From Gemmatimonas groenlandica (lineage in GTDB: Bacteria; Gemmatimonadota; Gemmatimonadetes; Gemmatimonadales; Gemmatimonadaceae): a stretch of 64,000 nt of DNA. Shown piece by piece: positions 3 through 10,240 of this stretch; positions within the stretch are counted from its first letter, which is position 1; every line of letters starts with the position of its first letter. Below the pieces are notes generated by a model. It was not told where the DNA came from. It was given only the letters and a program-made list of their open reading frames with translations, and made no database searches. Location: positions 992,001 through 1,056,000 of the forward strand of contig NZ_CP053085.1 in the NCBI RefSeq assembly GCF_013004105.1, read 5' to 3'. The translations under genes and the position numbers were made by a program.

Positions 3-932
3 ACGGCGCTCGACCTCGCGCTCGTTCGGGCGACGAAGGTCAATCGCAGCGCCGTCGAACGCCGCGTCGCCTCGCTGGGTGGCCGGCGCACGGTCAAGAA
101 GGAGTGGCAGGCCGCCTGGCTGTTGCGCGCCATCACCTGCATGGACCTGACCACGCTCGCTGGCGATGACACGCCCGGCAATGTGCAGCGGCTCTGCGCG
201 AAGGCGCGCCATCCGTTGCGTGGCGATATCGTTGATGCGCTCGGTGTGCGCGACCTCGGACTGACGGTCGGTGCGGTCTGCGTGTATCACCAATACGTCG
301 CCACCGCCGCTGAGGCCCTGAAAGGCTCGGGCGTCCCCGTGGCAGCCGTCTCCACGGGCTTTCCGGCCGGCCTCTCGCCGTTCGAACAGCGACTCGCCGA
401 GATCCATGCGTCGGTGGCGGCCGGGGCGACGGAAATCGACATCGTTATAACACGCGCCCACGTGCTGACCGGCAATTGGCAGGCGCTCTACGACGAAGTG
501 CGCGCCTTCCGCGACGCCTGTGGTGAAGCGCACCTGAAGACGATTCTCGGCGTCGGTGAACTTGCCACGCTCACCAACGTCGCCCGGGCTAGTCAGGTCG
601 CGATGATGGCCGGCTCCGACTTCATCAAGACCAGCACCGGCAAGGAAACCAGCAACGCCACGCTGCCTGTTGGGCTGGTAATGACACGCATGATCCGCGA
701 CTTCGGATCGCGTACTGGCTTTGAGGTAGGGTTCAAGCCCGCCGGCGGTATCCGTACGGCGAAGCAGGCGCTGGACTGGCTGATCCTCATGAAGGAGGAA
801 CTCGGTGATCGCTGGCTGCGACCGCATCTGTTTCGCTTCGGTGCGAGCGGCCTGCTCACCGACGTCGAGCGACAGCTCGAGCATTTCGTGACGGGCCGCT
901 ACGCTGCGGCTTATCGCCAACCCATGGTGTGA
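3..932 (+). CDS. deoC: Deoxyribose-phosphate aldolase (5' end cut by the window)
   Basis: Class I aldolase splitting 2-deoxyribose-5-phosphate into glyceraldehyde-3-phosphate and acetaldehyde in the cytosol. The reading frame is open from the left edge, and the residues upstream of the first in-window start codon (TTG at 123) match the family N-terminus, including RRTVKKEWQAAWLL, so the true start lies outside the window. The Schiff-base lysine sits in FIKTSTGKE, the second active-site lysine in VGFKPAGGIRT, and EIDIVI carries the acidic residue. The long N-terminal extension resembles the longer DERA-type proteins rather than the short E. coli form. The stop lies 5 nt before the ATG of the aldehyde dehydrogenase that follows, suggesting co-transcription and disposal of acetaldehyde. 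Identity is firm; only the start is missing. Confidence 0.95.
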   Translation, partial: TALDLALVRATKVNRSAVERRVASLGGRRTVKKEWQAAWLLRAITCMDLTTLAGDDTPGNVQRLCAKARHPLRGDIVDALGVRDLGLTVGAVCVYHQYVATAAEALKGSGVPVAAVSTGFPAGLSPFEQRLAEIHASVAAGATEIDIVITRAHVLTGNWQALYDEVRAFRDACGEAHLKTILGVGELATLTNVARASQVAMMAGSDFIKTSTGKETSNATLPVGLVMTRMIRDFGSRTGFEVGFKPAGGIRTAKQALDWLILMKEELGDRWLRPHLFRFGASGLLTDVERQLEHFVTGRYAAAYRQPMV

Positions 933-937
933 TCCGC

Positions 938-3376
938 ATGGCTACCACAACGACACCGACGGGCGGCACCGTCCGCGAGATCTTCGATGCGATGAGCTAC
1001 GGTCCTGCGCCTGAAGGCGACGCGATCGTGCGAGCGTGGCTGGCGGGTCACAGCAACCGCTTTGGACACTACATCGGCGGGGCCTTCACCCACCCGGTTG
1101 CGGACCAGTCGTTCGAAGTACACGACCCGTCCACCGGCGCCCTCCTCGCCCACGTCGCGCAAGGGAGTGCGCAGGATGTCGATGCCGCCGTGGCGGCCGC
1201 GCGTGCGGCGTTGCCGGCGTGGCAGGCGCTCGACGACCACGCCCGCGCCCGGTGGATGTATGCCATCGCCCGCGGTATTCAGAAGCATGCGCGGCACTTC
1301 GCGGTGCTGGAGTCGATCGACAACGGGAAGCCGATTCGCGAAACGCGTGACATCGACATCCCGCTCGTCGCGCGGCACTTCTCCTACCACGCCGGTTGGG
1401 CGCAATTGCTGTCCGCGGAGTTCCCCGGCCAGCACGCGTACGGCGTCGTGGGACAGGTGATCCCTTGGAATTTCCCGCTGCTGATGCTGGCGTGGAAAGT
1501 CGCGCCGGCGCTCGCGGCGGGAAACACCGTCGTGCTCAAACCCGCCGAGTTCACGCCGCTCACCGCGTTGCGCTTCGCGGAGCTGATGCAGGAAATCGGC
1601 TTGCCTCCGGGCGTTTTCAATCTGGTCACTGGTGACGGCCGTACCGGTGCGGCGATTGTCGATCATCCCGATGTCGACAAGATCGCCTTCACGGGCAGCA
1701 CCGAGGTCGGTCGCGCCATTCGCGTGGCCACGGCCGGCTCCGGCAAGGGCCTTTCCCTTGAATTGGGTGGGAAGAGCCCGTTCGTCGTGTTTGAAGACGC
1801 CGACCTGGATAGTGTCGTCGAAGGGGTGGTCGATGCGATCTGGTTCAATCAGGGCCAGGTGTGCTGCGCCGGATCGCGCCTGCTCGTGCAGGAGGGCGTG
1901 GCCGATCAGCTCATCGCGAAGCTGCGCGATCGTATGGAACGCCTCCGAATCGGATCGCCGCTCGACAAGACCGTCGACATGGGCGCGATCGTCGCCCCCG
2001 TGCAGCTCGCGCGCATCAAGCAATTGTGCGCGCAAGGTGTCGAAGAAGGCGCCACCTGCTGGCAGCCCTCGTGGGCCACGCCCGCCGAGGGCTCGTTCCA
2101 TCCGCCCACGCTGTTTACGAACGTCGCGCCGTCGGCGACCATCGCGCAGGTCGAGATCTTTGGCCCGGTGCTGGTCAGCATGACGTTTCGTACGCCAGAA
2201 GAAGCCGTCGCGCTGGCGAACAACACGCCGTTCGGTCTCGCCGCAAGCGTTTGGAGTGAGAATATCAACCTCGCGCTCGACATTGCACCGAAGCTCAAGT
2301 CTGGCGTGGTGTGGATCAACAGCACCAATCTGTTCGACGCAGGGGCCGGCTTCGGCGGGTATCGCGAGTCTGGGTTTGGTCGCGAAGGTGGACGCGAGGG
2401 ACTCGGCGAGTATCTGAAGCCGGTACGCTCGCACGAGCCCGCACCGTCGCCGGTCGATGCCGGCGCCGAGCCGGTGGTGCACGCCGCGAGCGACAATGCC
2501 GCTGACACTGCGCTGACGACATCAACACTACCCGCGATGGATCGGACGCCGAAGCTGTTCATTGGCGGCAAGCAGGCGCGAAGCGATTCGGGCTACTCGC
2601 GTCGAGTGCTCGGCGCCCACGGTCGCGTGGTTGGCGAGGTCGGCGACGGCAATCGCAAGGATGTGCGCAATGCAGTCGAGGCGGCGCACGCCGGCGCCGG
2701 ATGGTCCAAGCTGTCCGGGCACCAGCGGTCGCAGATTCTGTTCTACATCGCAGAAAACTTGTCGGCCCGCGAACTCGAATTCGCCGCACGGCTCTCGGCG
2801 ATGACGGGCGCGTCCCACTTGGACGCAACTCGCGAGGTCGAGGCGTCGATCTCCCGGTTGTTCACGTACGGTGCATGGGCCGACAAGCACGATGGCGCGG
2901 TGCATGACGTGCCACTGCGCGGCGTAGCGTTAGCGATGCACGAACCAATCGGCGTCGTCGGCGTGGCCTGTCCCGACCCATATCCGTTGCTCGGTCTCGT
3001 GTCGCTGATCGCCCCGCTGCTCGCTACCGGCAATCGCGTGGTCGTAGTACCGTCCGAGCGGTACCCGCTCTCCGCGACCGATTTTTACAGCGTGCTCGAA
3101 ACCTCGGATGTGCCCGCTGGCGTGGTCAATATCGTCACCGGTCCGCGCGACGCGCTTGCCAAAGTGCTGGCAGAGCATGACGATGTGGATGCGCTGTGGT
3201 ACGTTGGATCACGGGCCGGTGCGACCGCTGTGGAAAAGGCGTCGGCCGCCAATCTGAAACGCACCTGGACCGAATGGGACGGGCGCGAATGGCTCGATCC
3301 GCGGGTGGGCGAAGGACGTGAGTTCCTGCGGCGTGCCGTGCAGGTCAAGAACATCTGGATTCCATACGGCGAATAA
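938..3376 (+). CDS. Two-domain aldehyde dehydrogenase, ALDH16-like
   Basis: NAD(P)-dependent aldehyde dehydrogenase of about 812 aa, much longer than the usual 480-500. The first ALDH domain (about residues 40-500) is complete: PWNFP, KPAEFTPL, the general-base Glu in LELGGKSP and the nucleophile Cys in FNQGQVCCAGSR. A second ALDH-like domain (about 530-812) keeps the Rossmann part (VVGVACPDPYPLLGL, VNIVTG) but lacks the Glu and Cys motifs and ends in VKNIWIPYGE. This is the architecture of the ALDH16 family, in which the second domain is noncatalytic. The ATG at 938 is preferred over a GTG at 929 that overlaps the deoC stop. Next to deoC the likely substrate is acetaldehyde; that is inference from position. 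Confidence 0.88.
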   Translation: MATTTTPTGGTVREIFDAMSYGPAPEGDAIVRAWLAGHSNRFGHYIGGAFTHPVADQSFEVHDPSTGALLAHVAQGSAQDVDAAVAAARAALPAWQALDDHARARWMYAIARGIQKHARHFAVLESIDNGKPIRETRDIDIPLVARHFSYHAGWAQLLSAEFPGQHAYGVVGQVIPWNFPLLMLAWKVAPALAAGNTVVLKPAEFTPLTALRFAELMQEIGLPPGVFNLVTGDGRTGAAIVDHPDVDKIAFTGSTEVGRAIRVATAGSGKGLSLELGGKSPFVVFEDADLDSVVEGVVDAIWFNQGQVCCAGSRLLVQEGVADQLIAKLRDRMERLRIGSPLDKTVDMGAIVAPVQLARIKQLCAQGVEEGATCWQPSWATPAEGSFHPPTLFTNVAPSATIAQVEIFGPVLVSMTFRTPEEAVALANNTPFGLAASVWSENINLALDIAPKLKSGVVWINSTNLFDAGAGFGGYRESGFGREGGREGLGEYLKPVRSHEPAPSPVDAGAEPVVHAASDNAADTALTTSTLPAMDRTPKLFIGGKQARSDSGYSRRVLGAHGRVVGEVGDGNRKDVRNAVEAAHAGAGWSKLSGHQRSQILFYIAENLSARELEFAARLSAMTGASHLDATREVEASISRLFTYGAWADKHDGAVHDVPLRGVALAMHEPIGVVGVACPDPYPLLGLVSLIAPLLATGNRVVVVPSERYPLSATDFYSVLETSDVPAGVVNIVTGPRDALAKVLAEHDDVDALWYVGSRAGATAVEKASAANLKRTWTEWDGREWLDPRVGEGREFLRRAVQVKNIWIPYGE

Positions 3377-5283: not shown

Positions 5284-6003
5284 ATGCGATTCGCACGACA
5301 CATCGGCGTGGCGGCACTGGTCCTCAGCGCGGTGTCCGCGCGCGCCGAGGCGCAGCTGCCTACGGTTCAGCAGGTGTTCGACAAGTTCGCGACGGCCGTC
5401 GGTGGTCGCGAGGCATGGACGAAGGTGCAGGGCCGTAGCGACAAGGGCACGGCCGACATCACGTTCGCCGGCATCTCCGGCACCTACGAACGGTACAGTG
5501 GTGCGCCCAACAAGATGCGCATGATCATCGATCTCGGTATGGCCAAGGTCGATCAGGGCTTCGACGGCACCATCGGCTGGGCGGTGCAGCCCATGGGCCA
5601 GGCGCAGCGTATGCCCGCCGAACAGGAGAAGTCACTCGGCGAGTCCATTCAGGTGGGGGCGGCGTTCCTTGATGTCAGCCGTTTCGCGAAAGCGTCGGTC
5701 GACGCCAAGGAAGTGTTCGACGGCGTCGAATGCTACAAGCTTTCGATCACGTCGAAACTGGGCGAAGAGCGCACCGAGTATTTCGAGGTGGCGACCGGTC
5801 TTCGCCGCGGTGCGGTCACGAAGACGCCTATGGGTGAGCAGAAGTCGATGTTCCGCGACTACAAGGCGTTCGAAGGCAAGCAGATTCCGACCAAGGTCGT
5901 GCAGTCCACGCCTCAGGGCGACGTGATTCTCACCACCACCGAAGTGTCCTTCACGCCCCCGGATCCGACGCTGTTCAAGGCACCGGACGGGATCGCGAAG
6001 TAG
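5284..6003 (+). CDS. Exported hypothetical protein, LolA/outer-membrane-lipoprotein-sorting-like
   Basis: A 239-aa protein with a clear signal peptide (MRFARHIGVAALVLSAVSARAEA, likely cut before QLPTV), so periplasmic. The body contains short beta-strand-like stretches (KGTADITFAG, YERYSGAPNKMRM, EYFEVATGL, TTTEVSFTPPD) that recall LolA/LppX-type folds in which a lipid-binding half-barrel is formed, but no catalytic motif is visible and the assignment is only by texture. The ATG at 5284 is chosen because GGAG lies 7 nt upstream and the signal peptide begins there; an ATG at 5260 would add eight residues before it. The 3' end overlaps the convergent photolyase-fusion gene by 29 bp. Confidence 0.75.
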   Translation: MRFARHIGVAALVLSAVSARAEAQLPTVQQVFDKFATAVGGREAWTKVQGRSDKGTADITFAGISGTYERYSGAPNKMRMIIDLGMAKVDQGFDGTIGWAVQPMGQAQRMPAEQEKSLGESIQVGAAFLDVSRFAKASVDAKEVFDGVECYKLSITSKLGEERTEYFEVATGLRRGAVTKTPMGEQKSMFRDYKAFEGKQIPTKVVQSTPQGDVILTTTEVSFTPPDPTLFKAPDGIAK

Positions 6004-8389
6004 CGCGACCGAGCACACGCCCCGCCAGCGCAATTCCGCTTAGCCACGCGCGCTCCACCGACGGGTGAGAGCGTGTTGTGGCGCCGGCGGCGCCCCAATC
6101 CCCGCACGCGCCGATGCCGTTCGCGGCGTCGAACAGACAGAGGTCGTCGAGTCCGGTTTGTACGCGCGCGTAGCGCCAGCGGTGCGCCGCGGCATGACGT
6201 ACGGTCCCCGCAATCTGCAATTGCGCGAGTAACGCGTCCGCGACGAGTGTCGCGACAACCGCCGGTTCGGCCTCCACGTTCTCGGCACTCCAGTTGCCTT
6301 CGCTGTGCACTACCCAGGCTTCGTCGCTGCTTCGCCCTGGACGCGACGACTGACGCCACGCGCGGTGCACGACGGGCGAGTCCGTGCGCAGTTCGCCACC
6401 CACGAGTGCTTCGCTCACGATCGTGGGCGGTGGCCCATCGAATACCACCATGGTGCTCCAGCAGGGGAGCATGCTCACGCTGGCGAGAGACGCGGCGAGT
6501 GCCCCCATGGCTCCGTTCGCGTGCTCGACGGTACTCAGCAGTGCGGCCGCTTGCGGTGCCGGCGTCGCCACCAAGACGATGTCAGCGTCGTGCTGGCCCC
6601 CTTCGCGGTCGGCGATGGCCCATCCTGAGCCCGCACGGGACATCGACGCCACGTGCACGCCGGTACGGACGTGCAGATCGCGCGCCAGATGCTTGGCCAA
6701 CGCATTCATTCCGCGCACCCCGACCAGCGCTCCCGCAGCGACCTCACGCAGCACGTCGTCCTCGATCCATGACTCCACGAAGCGCAACAGTCGAGAATCG
6801 TCGAGTCGGATGGATGGCGCACCGTGGTCGAACTGCCAAGTTCCTTCGCGCCGCGTACTCATCCGCCCGCCCACGCCCCGACTCTTATCCAGCACGGTCA
6901 CGGCGATGCCGTGATCATGCAACGTGCGCGCACAAGCGAGCCCGGAGATGCCCGCGCCGATCACCGTGACGCGTGGTGACAGGCCAGCCGACCGGCTCAC
7001 GTGTGCACGATACGCCGGAAAGCTCATGCGCTGCTGGTGCTCGTCCGATCGCCGCGGTCGAACCGTGCCAAGCACCGCGACTTCAGGCGAGAACGGTCGG
7101 TCGAATTGTCCAAGGCACCAGAGCAGTCCGCCGTAACTGGCAGGATCGCGCCCGTCCAGCGCATAGCGATGGTTCAGATCGATCAGGCGTTCCAGCGACT
7201 CCGACGCATTTGACGACCACATCGGAATCGCCTTGCCCCACGTCATACGCACGTTGTTGTGCAACTCGCCGTGGACGCGTAGCGATTGCTGTGCCGTGTC
7301 CCACAACTCGTCGCCTGTGCAGCTGCGCGCAAGCGTCTCCCACGAGTGCCGCGTGCGGGTGTCCGGCTCGTGTCGTGCCAGCGTCTCCCGCGCCCAGGCG
7401 GGAACGGCGTCGAGCGTATCCGGTGCATCGTGCCAATAGCAGAAGGCGTAGGCGAGTTCGCGCCACACGAGCAGCTCATCGAGGTACTTGTCGGCTCCTT
7501 GCCCCCCACGCGCGGCACACTCCCGCACGATGCGGAACGTGGACACCATGCCGTAGTGGAAGTACGCCGACATGCGACTCACGCCGTCGATGCTGGCGTC
7601 GTTGCGCTTGGCCGCGTAGCGGTCGAGACGACCCGTGCGCACGAACTCACGCCAGCGCGCGTAGCCGGCCTCGGTGCCACCCGCCGTATGCGGCACCGGC
7701 CCGATGCCGTGGTCGATCTCGCAGTGCGCAACCATGGCGGCGATGTCGGCGTCGGCCAATCGGAGTGGCTCGAAGGGCAGGTCGTCCGGTACGAACGCGG
7801 GCGTGTGCGGAGTCACATCGGTCCAGTCGGCGGATACCCGTGCCGTGCGCAGTGCCGCGGTCGCGTCGCGAAACGCAAACGCGCGCGTGTGCGCTTTGCC
7901 CACGAGCGGCATTGGTACCACGCAGGCCGTATCTACGCTCCACACCGGACACGTCGTGGCCTCGGCGAGCGCATCGGTGAGCCAGTCCAAGGGAGCCACC
8001 GGCAACGTCTCCGTCACCACCAGCGCAGCGCGAGCGGCCAATGTGCGGAGGGCCGGCCCCCGATGTCCGGGGCGTTCCAGGTGAAAGGCGTAGCCGATAT
8101 CGCGTGCCGCACACTCCGCCTCGACGTCACGCGCACCTTCGAGAATGAACGTATGGTGTCGGTCCGACGCGTAAGGATACTTCTCCGAGAGCGCGTGATA
8201 CACGAAGACCGGCACGCCGAGTTGTTGGCCGGCGGCCAGCGCGACATCCAGCGCCGGGTTCTCGTGGGCGCGCACGGCCGTGCGCATCCAGTAGATCACG
8301 AAGCGACCGCTGGAGGCGGAGGCAGAGGGAGCCGAGTGGTCGGTAATCCGCTCGGCGAGGTGGCTGGGAAAAGAGTCGGGTCGGAGCAC
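5975..8389 (-). CDS. Class II CPD photolyase fused to a renalase-like FAD oxidoreductase
   Basis: One uninterrupted frame encodes two enzymes. From the GTG start, about residues 25-460 are a class II cyclobutane pyrimidine dimer photolyase: VIYWMRTAVRAHENPAL at the N-terminus, DELLVWRELAYAF, WGKAIPMW and RYALDGRDPASYGGLLWCLG, with the DRPF segment that closes the family. After a short linker, about residues 470-804 form an FAD/NAD(P)-binding amine-oxidase-type protein (VTVIGAGISGLACARTL, then GVGGRMSTRR), the signature of renalase-like COG3380 proteins. The start is uncertain: an upstream in-frame start at 8497 would give 840 aa but overlaps the small transporter subunit by 56 bp, and similarity to photolyases begins only near the GTG. 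Both halves look intact. Confidence 0.85.
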   Translation of the reverse strand: MLRPDSFPSHLAERITDHSAPSASASSGRFVIYWMRTAVRAHENPALDVALAAGQQLGVPVFVYHALSEKYPYASDRHHTFILEGARDVEAECAARDIGYAFHLERPGHRGPALRTLAARAALVVTETLPVAPLDWLTDALAEATTCPVWSVDTACVVPMPLVGKAHTRAFAFRDATAALRTARVSADWTDVTPHTPAFVPDDLPFEPLRLADADIAAMVAHCEIDHGIGPVPHTAGGTEAGYARWREFVRTGRLDRYAAKRNDASIDGVSRMSAYFHYGMVSTFRIVRECAARGGQGADKYLDELLVWRELAYAFCYWHDAPDTLDAVPAWARETLARHEPDTRTRHSWETLARSCTGDELWDTAQQSLRVHGELHNNVRMTWGKAIPMWSSNASESLERLIDLNHRYALDGRDPASYGGLLWCLGQFDRPFSPEVAVLGTVRPRRSDEHQQRMSFPAYRAHVSRSAGLSPRVTVIGAGISGLACARTLHDHGIAVTVLDKSRGVGGRMSTRREGTWQFDHGAPSIRLDDSRLLRFVESWIEDDVLREVAAGALVGVRGMNALAKHLARDLHVRTGVHVASMSRAGSGWAIADREGGQHDADIVLVATPAPQAAALLSTVEHANGAMGALAASLASVSMLPCWSTMVVFDGPPPTIVSEALVGGELRTDSPVVHRAWRQSSRPGRSSDEAWVVHSEGNWSAENVEAEPAVVATLVADALLAQLQIAGTVRHAAAHRWRYARVQTGLDDLCLFDAANGIGACGDWGAAGATTRSHPSVERAWLSGIALAGRVLGRATSRSRPVP

Positions 8390-8441
8390 GCTGAACAACG
8401 CGCTCCGACCCGATCTCGTGCCAACAAACAGCTGGTGCCGC

Positions 8442-8606
8442 CTATCCTCGCTTCTTAGCGTGCGGCGGCTCAGGCGGGGATTCGGGTCCGATGCCATCCG
8501 GATCGAAGTGCTTCTGGTCCGTCAACAACTTCGCGAACGACCAGGCCGTCAGGCCGAGCACGAAGGTCCAGCTGACCGCCATAAAGGCAATGGCTCCAAC
8601 AGACAT
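8442..8606 (-). CDS. Small subunit of NSS transporter, MetS-like
   Basis: A 54-aa protein with one membrane segment (AIAFMAVSWTFVLGLTAWSFA) and a charged, proline-rich C-terminus (GPESPPEPPHAKKRG). Its ATG shares a base with the TGA of the NSS symporter upstream (TGATG), so it is very likely translated by coupling. Small proteins in this position are known as MetS in the MetPS methionine/alanine transporter, where both parts are needed for uptake. The identification relies on position, size and the single-helix pattern; the amino acid substrate is not shown by the sequence. Confidence 0.8.
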   Translation of the reverse strand: MSVGAIAFMAVSWTFVLGLTAWSFAKLLTDQKHFDPDGIGPESPPEPPHAKKRG

Positions 8607-10240
8607 CAGGACTCCGCTCGGTTGGTGTCGATCTCGACGAAGCCCTTGCGGTCGTCGTAGCCGTTCTTCTTCCACGCCGTGCGGATGAAGAACAGGAAGA
8701 CGATCACGAAGAGCACCAGGATGCCACGCGAGATCGTGATGTACGGCATGTCGACGTCCGAGACCGGGCTCGAACTACCCGCCGAGCGCTGGTTCAACAA
8801 GATCGGCAGCGCCTCGTCCTTCCCCCACCACGTAAGAATGACGAGCAGGTAAATCGGCGTCACGTAGGTCATGATGAACTTGAAGATCTTCGGGATGTTG
8901 ATATCCGCGCCCATGTGGATCGATTTCCACGCGTTTTCGGGCTTGAATATCCACACGAAGATGATGACTTCGGTGATGGCCACAAGCACCAAGCCGAACG
9001 TACCGACCCAGTAGTCCCACTCGTCCAGGAAGCCGTGCCCGAGCCAGTGCACGTGCAGCATACCGATGCAGAAGCAAATGGCACCAAGGGTCCATGCCAC
9101 CTTCTCGCGCGCGATGCCGAACTCTTCGCGGAAGAAGGCCGTGATTGGTGTCAGCATCGACACCGACGACGTGATGCCGGCGAAGAACAGCAGTCCGAAC
9201 CACATCACGCCGAGCAGATTGCCGATCGGGAGTGTCTTGTCGATCTGCTGAAACACCACCGGCATCGTGGCGAAGCCGAGGTCGAACGAACCGCCCTGCG
9301 CGATCTGCATCGCACCCGCCACACCGAAGAACGTCACGGCCGCGGGAATCGCGATCGAACCGCCCAGCACGACTTCTGCCGTCTCATTCGTTGCCGCAGT
9401 CGCAATACCGTTCAGCGCGATGTCATCCTTGGTCGAGAGATACGACGCGTACGCCTGCAGCGAACCCATACCCACTGACAGGGTGAAGAAAATCTGTCCC
9501 GCGGCGGCCAGCCAGATGCCCGGCGAACCGAGGCGCGAGAAGTCCGGCGCATAGATGAACTCGAGGCCTTGCGCCGGTGTGGCACCGACTCCGGGCTGCG
9601 CCGGCAACGTCAACACCACGCCCGCCAACACGATCGCAAACAGAAACAATATCGGCATGCCGATCTTAGCCAGCTTCTCGATCCCGCCCGAGATGCCCTT
9701 CGACAGGACGTAGATGTTGATCAGCATCGTGAACGCGAAAAACGCGTACGGCGTATACGACGCGTGATACTCCGTGCCGCCCGCCGGCGTAAGCCCTTGG
9801 AACGAGCGCAGGTAGCCGATCATGCCTTCCTGCGAAGTGATCCCCCAATAGTCTTTCGTTGCCGAGAAGATGGCGAACGCCAGTGTCCAACTTTCGATGT
9901 ACGTGTAATAGATCATGACGCCGAGCGGCACGACCATGCCCACGACGCCCACGTACTTTGCCGCTGGATGTTTCCACAGCGCGGCGAACATGCCAGGTAG
10001 ATGACCCTTGCGGTACCGTCCGCCATTCCGCCCAACGCCCCACTCGATCCACATGAGCGGGATGCCAAGCAGCAGCAACGCGATGAAGTACGCGATCATG
10101 TACGAACCGCCGCCATTGGCGGCAGCCTGACGCGGAAAGCGCAGGAAGTTGCCGAGGCCGACCGCATTACCCGCCATGGCGAGAATGAGACCGATACGAC
10201 TGCCCCAGGCTTCGTTCGAGCCGGAGTTGGATGACGACAA
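8606..10240 (-). CDS. Sodium-dependent NSS family symporter (MetP-like)
   Basis: Twelve-helix sodium-coupled symporter of the neurotransmitter:sodium symporter family, 544 aa, in the cytoplasmic membrane. The TM1 signature is unmistakable: LAMAGNAVGLGNFLRFP with the unwound sodium/substrate-binding turn, followed by GGGSYMIAYF and WIEWGVGR. TM6 has FFTLSVGMGSLQAYASY. No ATG fits: the frame opens with TTG at 10240, which has GGAG five nt upstream (complement of 10246-10249). It is followed without a gap by its MetS-like subunit. Bacterial members carry methionine, alanine, tryptophan, tyrosine or leucine; with a MetS partner a neutral amino acid such as methionine or alanine is likely, but this is inference. 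Confidence 0.93.
   Translation of the reverse strand: MSSSNSGSNEAWGSRIGLILAMAGNAVGLGNFLRFPRQAAANGGGSYMIAYFIALLLLGIPLMWIEWGVGRNGGRYRKGHLPGMFAALWKHPAAKYVGVVGMVVPLGVMIYYTYIESWTLAFAIFSATKDYWGITSQEGMIGYLRSFQGLTPAGGTEYHASYTPYAFFAFTMLINIYVLSKGISGGIEKLAKIGMPILFLFAIVLAGVVLTLPAQPGVGATPAQGLEFIYAPDFSRLGSPGIWLAAAGQIFFTLSVGMGSLQAYASYLSTKDDIALNGIATAATNETAEVVLGGSIAIPAAVTFFGVAGAMQIAQGGSFDLGFATMPVVFQQIDKTLPIGNLLGVMWFGLLFFAGITSSVSMLTPITAFFREEFGIAREKVAWTLGAICFCIGMLHVHWLGHGFLDEWDYWVGTFGLVLVAITEVIIFVWIFKPENAWKSIHMGADINIPKIFKFIMTYVTPIYLLVILTWWGKDEALPILLNQRSAGSSSPVSDVDMPYITISRGILVLFVIVFLFFIRTAWKKNGYDDRKGFVEIDTNRAES

Follow-up and report, generated by a model that had tools for sequence, protein, structure and literature searches.

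Why should a DNA photolyase and a renalase-like flavoenzyme be carried on one polypeptide, and does such a polypeptide exist beyond a single genome? The question is raised by a gene on the minus strand of the window, by which we mean the whole 64,000-nucleotide stretch of Gemmatimonas groenlandica DNA analyzed here. A protein that joins renalase and photolyase, with pairs of free genes in agreement, makes two questions testable in one purified enzyme: the cellular role of bacterial renalases and the means by which the photolyase flavin is kept reduced. Within the open PMC literature searched, no paper dealt with renalase and photolyase together; the fusion seems to be undescribed, although both of its parts are known. 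New in comparison to this literature are a widespread fusion forming a single clade, its counterpart in neighboring genes, and a remodeling of the second half in Gemmatimonas.

The minus-strand frame is open over positions 5975-8497 and would encode 840 amino acids if counted from an ATG. The GTG at 8389, the start taken in the original prediction, is likely the better start, because relatives conserve the sequence from its Val on and not the part upstream. Counted from this GTG, the fusion gene spans 5975-8389 and encodes about 804 amino acids. Its first part, residues 1-465 (6995-8389; structured from about residue 26), is a class II-type photolyase half. The best profile match of residues 26-465 was TIGR00591 (E-value = 6e-83), with 279.6 bits against a curated cut-off of 550 that may be narrower than the family, and class II photolyases in the PDB matched the same half (E-value = 2e-52). 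Residues 472-799 (5993-6976) matched the bacterial renalase 4zcc (E-value = 3.5e-33). Between them lies a short junction of about residues 466-471 (6977-6994), placed where most photolyase matches end (465) and the renalase match starts (472). Pfam returned the same two parts, DNA_photolyase and NAD_binding_8/Amino_oxidase, less sharply delimited. These PDB and profile matches bear out the original prediction, made from the sequence, that one frame encodes a class II-type photolyase followed by a renalase-type FAD domain, and the homology rejects a chance open reading frame.

The junction was predicted to be neither frameshifted nor decayed, and this held: there is no indel around 6977-6994, and the two halves share one frame in 103 full-length fusions, a set in which some genomes appear under two locus ids and so count double. 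An artefact or frameshift at the junction is thereby rejected. From a DRP[FY] motif to the GxGxxG of the second half, the spacing hardly varies (median 49 residues). The two-domain order proved to be conserved: a collection of one genome per species (84,980 species) yielded 274 relatives, and the best 80 of these were all single-frame fusions. According to the record titles, these 80 belong to Planctomycetota (43), Gemmatimonadota (20), Myxococcota (8), Pseudomonadota (6), and others; Alphaproteobacteria are among the carriers. Within the genus of the window, the fusion is present in most of 30 genomes. Binning is ruled out as the source of the fusion, because the carriers include closed genomes (L088, L123, and that of the window). 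Fusions were also recorded in L135, labeled Klebsiella pneumoniae, which looks like a mislabeled MAG, and in L105, labeled Desulfobacteraceae, whose fusion groups with Planctomycetota in the photolyase tree.

In that tree, which includes few stand-alone relatives, the photolyase halves of the fusions group together in a single clade (SH-aLRT = 99), separate from the phylum's stand-alone class II relatives. On this basis the fusion is probably ancient and of single origin. The renalase tree is poorly resolved and does not require more than one origin. One congener, G022, carries the photolyase half only, with its own stop and no renalase remnant downstream. Its photolyase was placed within the Gemmatimonas clade, indicating that the renalase half was probably lost in G022.

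The photolyase half has the class II fold, with Z-scores of 42 to 45 to MmCPDII (PDB 2xry) and the rice enzyme (3umv) over 400 to 434 residues; superposition of the AlphaFold2 model on the M. mazei class II photolyase gave Z = 44 and an rmsd of 2.1 to 2.4 Å. Identity to the MmCPDII and rice enzymes is about 29%, and, unlike them, the fusion bears a C-terminal renalase-fold domain. Equivalents of R256, E301, W305, N403, and W421 (MmCPDII numbering), which we take to be catalytic and lesion-binding residues of class II photolyase, are shared with these enzymes and present in 35 of 35 fusions. The Trp triad, W381-W360-W388 in class II photolyase (PMC5885780), is also shared and intact in the window protein: W384 (7238-7240; W381, proximal) and W363 (7301-7303; W360) are conserved in all 35 fusions, and W391 (7217-7219; W388, distal) in 34. 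Judged by these residues, the photolyase half should still photoreduce its own FAD. In contrast, the equivalents of Tyr345, Tyr380, Lys384, and Glu387 of MmCPDII are mostly replaced. Tyr345 is almost strictly conserved across class II photolyases (PMC5885780); its equivalent is His in the window protein, and Tyr occupies the position in just 7 of the 35 fusions, versus 6 of 8 stand-alone or photolyase-only relatives. Further photolyase genes occur elsewhere in the same genome: two more members of the family lie on contig C1 at about 174481-175929 and 1836219-1836602, and one of these two encodes a stand-alone class II enzyme, 38% identical to the fused half.

The second half has the renalase fold (Z = 40 to 4zcc, rmsd 1.6 Å over 308 residues; Z = 33 to human renalase). 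With the bacterial renalases 4zcc, 4zcd, and 5krq and the Pseudomonas syringae enzyme 3kkj, it shares this fold (Z = 39 to 40, rmsd 1.6 to 1.7 Å), the FAD-binding motifs, and the C-terminal GDW...E..SG region. Its dinucleotide-binding motif, GAGISG (6941-6958), corresponds to a GxGxxG present in 103 of 103 fusions. The second half differs from these renalases in being fused to a photolyase and, within the window's genus, in lacking a set of conserved renalase residues. We compared 29 free Pseudomonadota renalases with 20 fusions from outside the genus and 6 from within it. The Q and Y of a GAQY motif were found in 27 and 26 of the 29 free renalases, respectively, and in none of the 6 genus sequences. 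The window protein has GAPS (6812-6823) in place of the GAQY of free renalases and most other fusions, and GAQY was absent from all 30 genus sequences. A loop Trp that was invariant in free renalases (29/29) and the other fusions (20/20) was missing from the genus (0/6), where a deletion at 6728-6748 leaves the loop about 20 residues shorter. Two further residues are gone, a Trp close to the LxW region and an Arg close to the C-terminal motif. Most fusions outside the genus retain all four features, with exceptions; in L078, L083, and L107 the putative pocket is intact.

This conservation pattern and general knowledge of renalase suggest that the residues missing in the genus lie along the substrate pocket. 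The expectation that both halves keep their signature motifs therefore stood for the photolyase half and, in the second half, for the FAD-binding motifs; it failed for these conserved, probably pocket-lining renalase residues. Because the whole set is lost in the window and its genus, we class the second half of the window protein as renalase-fold, not as renalase. The median dN/dS was 0.33 for the renalase half and 0.16 for the photolyase half. These values reflect purifying selection, indicating that the renalase half is remodeled and not dead; together with the conserved FAD motifs, they reject a decaying second half. Judging from its motifs, the Gemmatimonas renalase half would still bind FAD, and its substrate probably differs from that elsewhere.

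The AlphaFold2 prediction of the window protein, made with 52 fusions, had a mean pLDDT of 92 and a pTM of 0.92, and a second fusion, from an alphaproteobacterial MAG, reached 94 and 0.93. The junction residues had a pLDDT of about 90 or more and are thus predicted to be ordered. The models are consistent with two domains in fixed relative placement.

The two enzymes are also linked as separate genes. In 12 of 40 Pseudomonadota genomes, a free renalase gene precedes, by 19 to 2393 bp, the photolyase domain of another gene on the same strand. About half of these cases form one related cluster in the renalase tree, so the 12 correspond to roughly six or seven independent lineages. Like the fusion, these pairs bring the same two enzyme families close together on one strand; unlike the fusion, they are separate genes, with the renalase first. 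We conclude that the link between the renalase and photolyase halves is real. In several Planctomycetota, a photolyase-related DPRP gene (4 to 8 nt away at two loci) and SDR genes are found close to the fusion. Genes for a squalene/phytoene synthase and an amine-oxidase-type protein were observed upstream of the fusion in L107, L116, L133, and L138.

Within the phylum, presence of the fusion goes with photosynthetic reaction-center genes. Using PF00124 to identify reaction-center genes, we found them in 22 of 23 genus genomes with the fusion or the photolyase-only ortholog, a count that includes G022 with its photolyase half only, and in 1 of 7 without (30 genomes: 22 with both, 6 with neither, 1 + 1 discordant, the latter incomplete genomes). 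In the rest of the Gemmatimonadota, reaction-center genes occurred in 7 of 12 genomes with the fusion versus 19 of 359 others (Fisher P = 2e-6, without correction for relatedness). On an rpoB tree of the genus, the two traits change jointly four times, three of them on well-supported branches; three to four independent concordant changes (sign test P = 0.25) are suggestive and do not suffice for a test. That phototrophy alone explains the fusion is rejected, since no reaction center was found in the Planctomycetota fusion genomes tested and 20 reaction-center genomes of the phylum lack the fusion. Neither the operon nor the phototrophy correlations show mechanism. A shift to high light switches on two photolyases in G. 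phototrophica (PMC11406998), and one congener, perhaps of that species, has three photolyase genes, the fusion included.

What, then, might the second half do? Renalase oxidizes the 1,2- and 1,6-isomers of NAD(P)H, which arise by nonspecific, including photochemical, reduction; 1,4-NAD(P)H is not a substrate, as shown for the human enzyme (PMC7660482). Given this substrate preference and the photochemical source of the isomers, co-deployed cofactor repair fits light-stressed cells better than a reductase fed by NAD(P)H. We therefore tentatively favor, at somewhat less than even confidence, a two-enzyme protein for light stress that combines DNA photorepair with a flavin oxidase whose ancestral substrates would be damaged nicotinamide cofactors. 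Going by homology and conserved residues, the N-terminal class II-type CPD photolyase would repair UV dimers and reduce its own FAD through the Trp triad, and the C-terminal renalase-fold FAD enzyme would keep a constant placement relative to it. In most fusions, the second half would probably be a working renalase-type oxidase that clears photochemically formed, inhibitory 1,2- and 1,6-NAD(P)H, and would thus act as a metabolite-repair partner of the DNA-repair half and not as an electron source. This isomer-oxidase reading does not simply transfer to the window protein, because the probable pocket residues are gone in its genus. There, the second half appears to bind FAD and to be under selection, its probable pocket is remodeled, and another substrate is probable.

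Possible, with perhaps one chance in a few, is that in Gemmatimonas the second half now serves as a structural or regulatory FAD module, for example one that stabilizes the photolyase, without turnover of its own. The loss of the renalase motifs and of the loop while the FAD motifs stay, a dN/dS about twice that of the photolyase half, and the absence of the second half in G022 all agree with such a module. On the other side, many other residues are conserved across the genus, dN/dS is well below 1, and a change of substrate would account for this pattern too.

The original prediction had gone further and proposed that the tethered second domain supplies the photolyase FAD with electrons drawn from NAD(P)H, so that this FAD stays fully reduced and repair-competent. 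This part found no support, human renalase being inactive on the 1,4 form. Even when widened to electrons from the isomers, we regard it as unlikely: the intact Trp triad, the congener that keeps the photolyase half alone, and the loss of conserved renalase residues in the window's genus all speak against it, while the high pTM of the models of two fusions, which predicts a fixed geometry, the linkage of the same enzyme pair as separate genes, and the rarity of Tyr at the position of the Tyr345 donor in fusions would suit it. A variant in which the renalase-fold flavin would pass electrons from a donor other than 1,4-NAD(P)H to the photolyase FAD, giving a self-powered photolyase with a new donor in Gemmatimonas, seems less probable still.

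Least probable of all, at long odds, is that two proteins of a light-stress regulon were joined once by chance for co-expression and inherited without functional coupling, a view to which the separate neighboring genes of Pseudomonadota and the membership of PhrB in the core RpoE-ChrR singlet-oxygen regulon (PMC5507510) lend themselves, and against which stand the persistence of the fusion over several phyla with a near-constant junction length and the confident relative placement of the predicted domains. A fixed interface with a linker of about six residues would exceed what co-expression needs; this favors some physical coupling of the two halves and counts against the two-enzyme reading for light stress as well.

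The genes flanking the fusion in the window gave no hint of its function. Adjoining it is an SNF transporter gene (8609-10240, minus strand; its lower end was also given as 8606), which a search of seven congeners, run without positive control, did not recover; the flank may thus be specific to the lineage. Just downstream of the transporter gene, a 54-aa membrane-like open reading frame (8442-8606, minus strand) weakly resembles the MetS small subunit of NSS transporters (E-value = 0.13, below the cut-off). Further away in the window, a single open reading frame on the plus strand (929-3376) contains two aldehyde dehydrogenase stretches in tandem.
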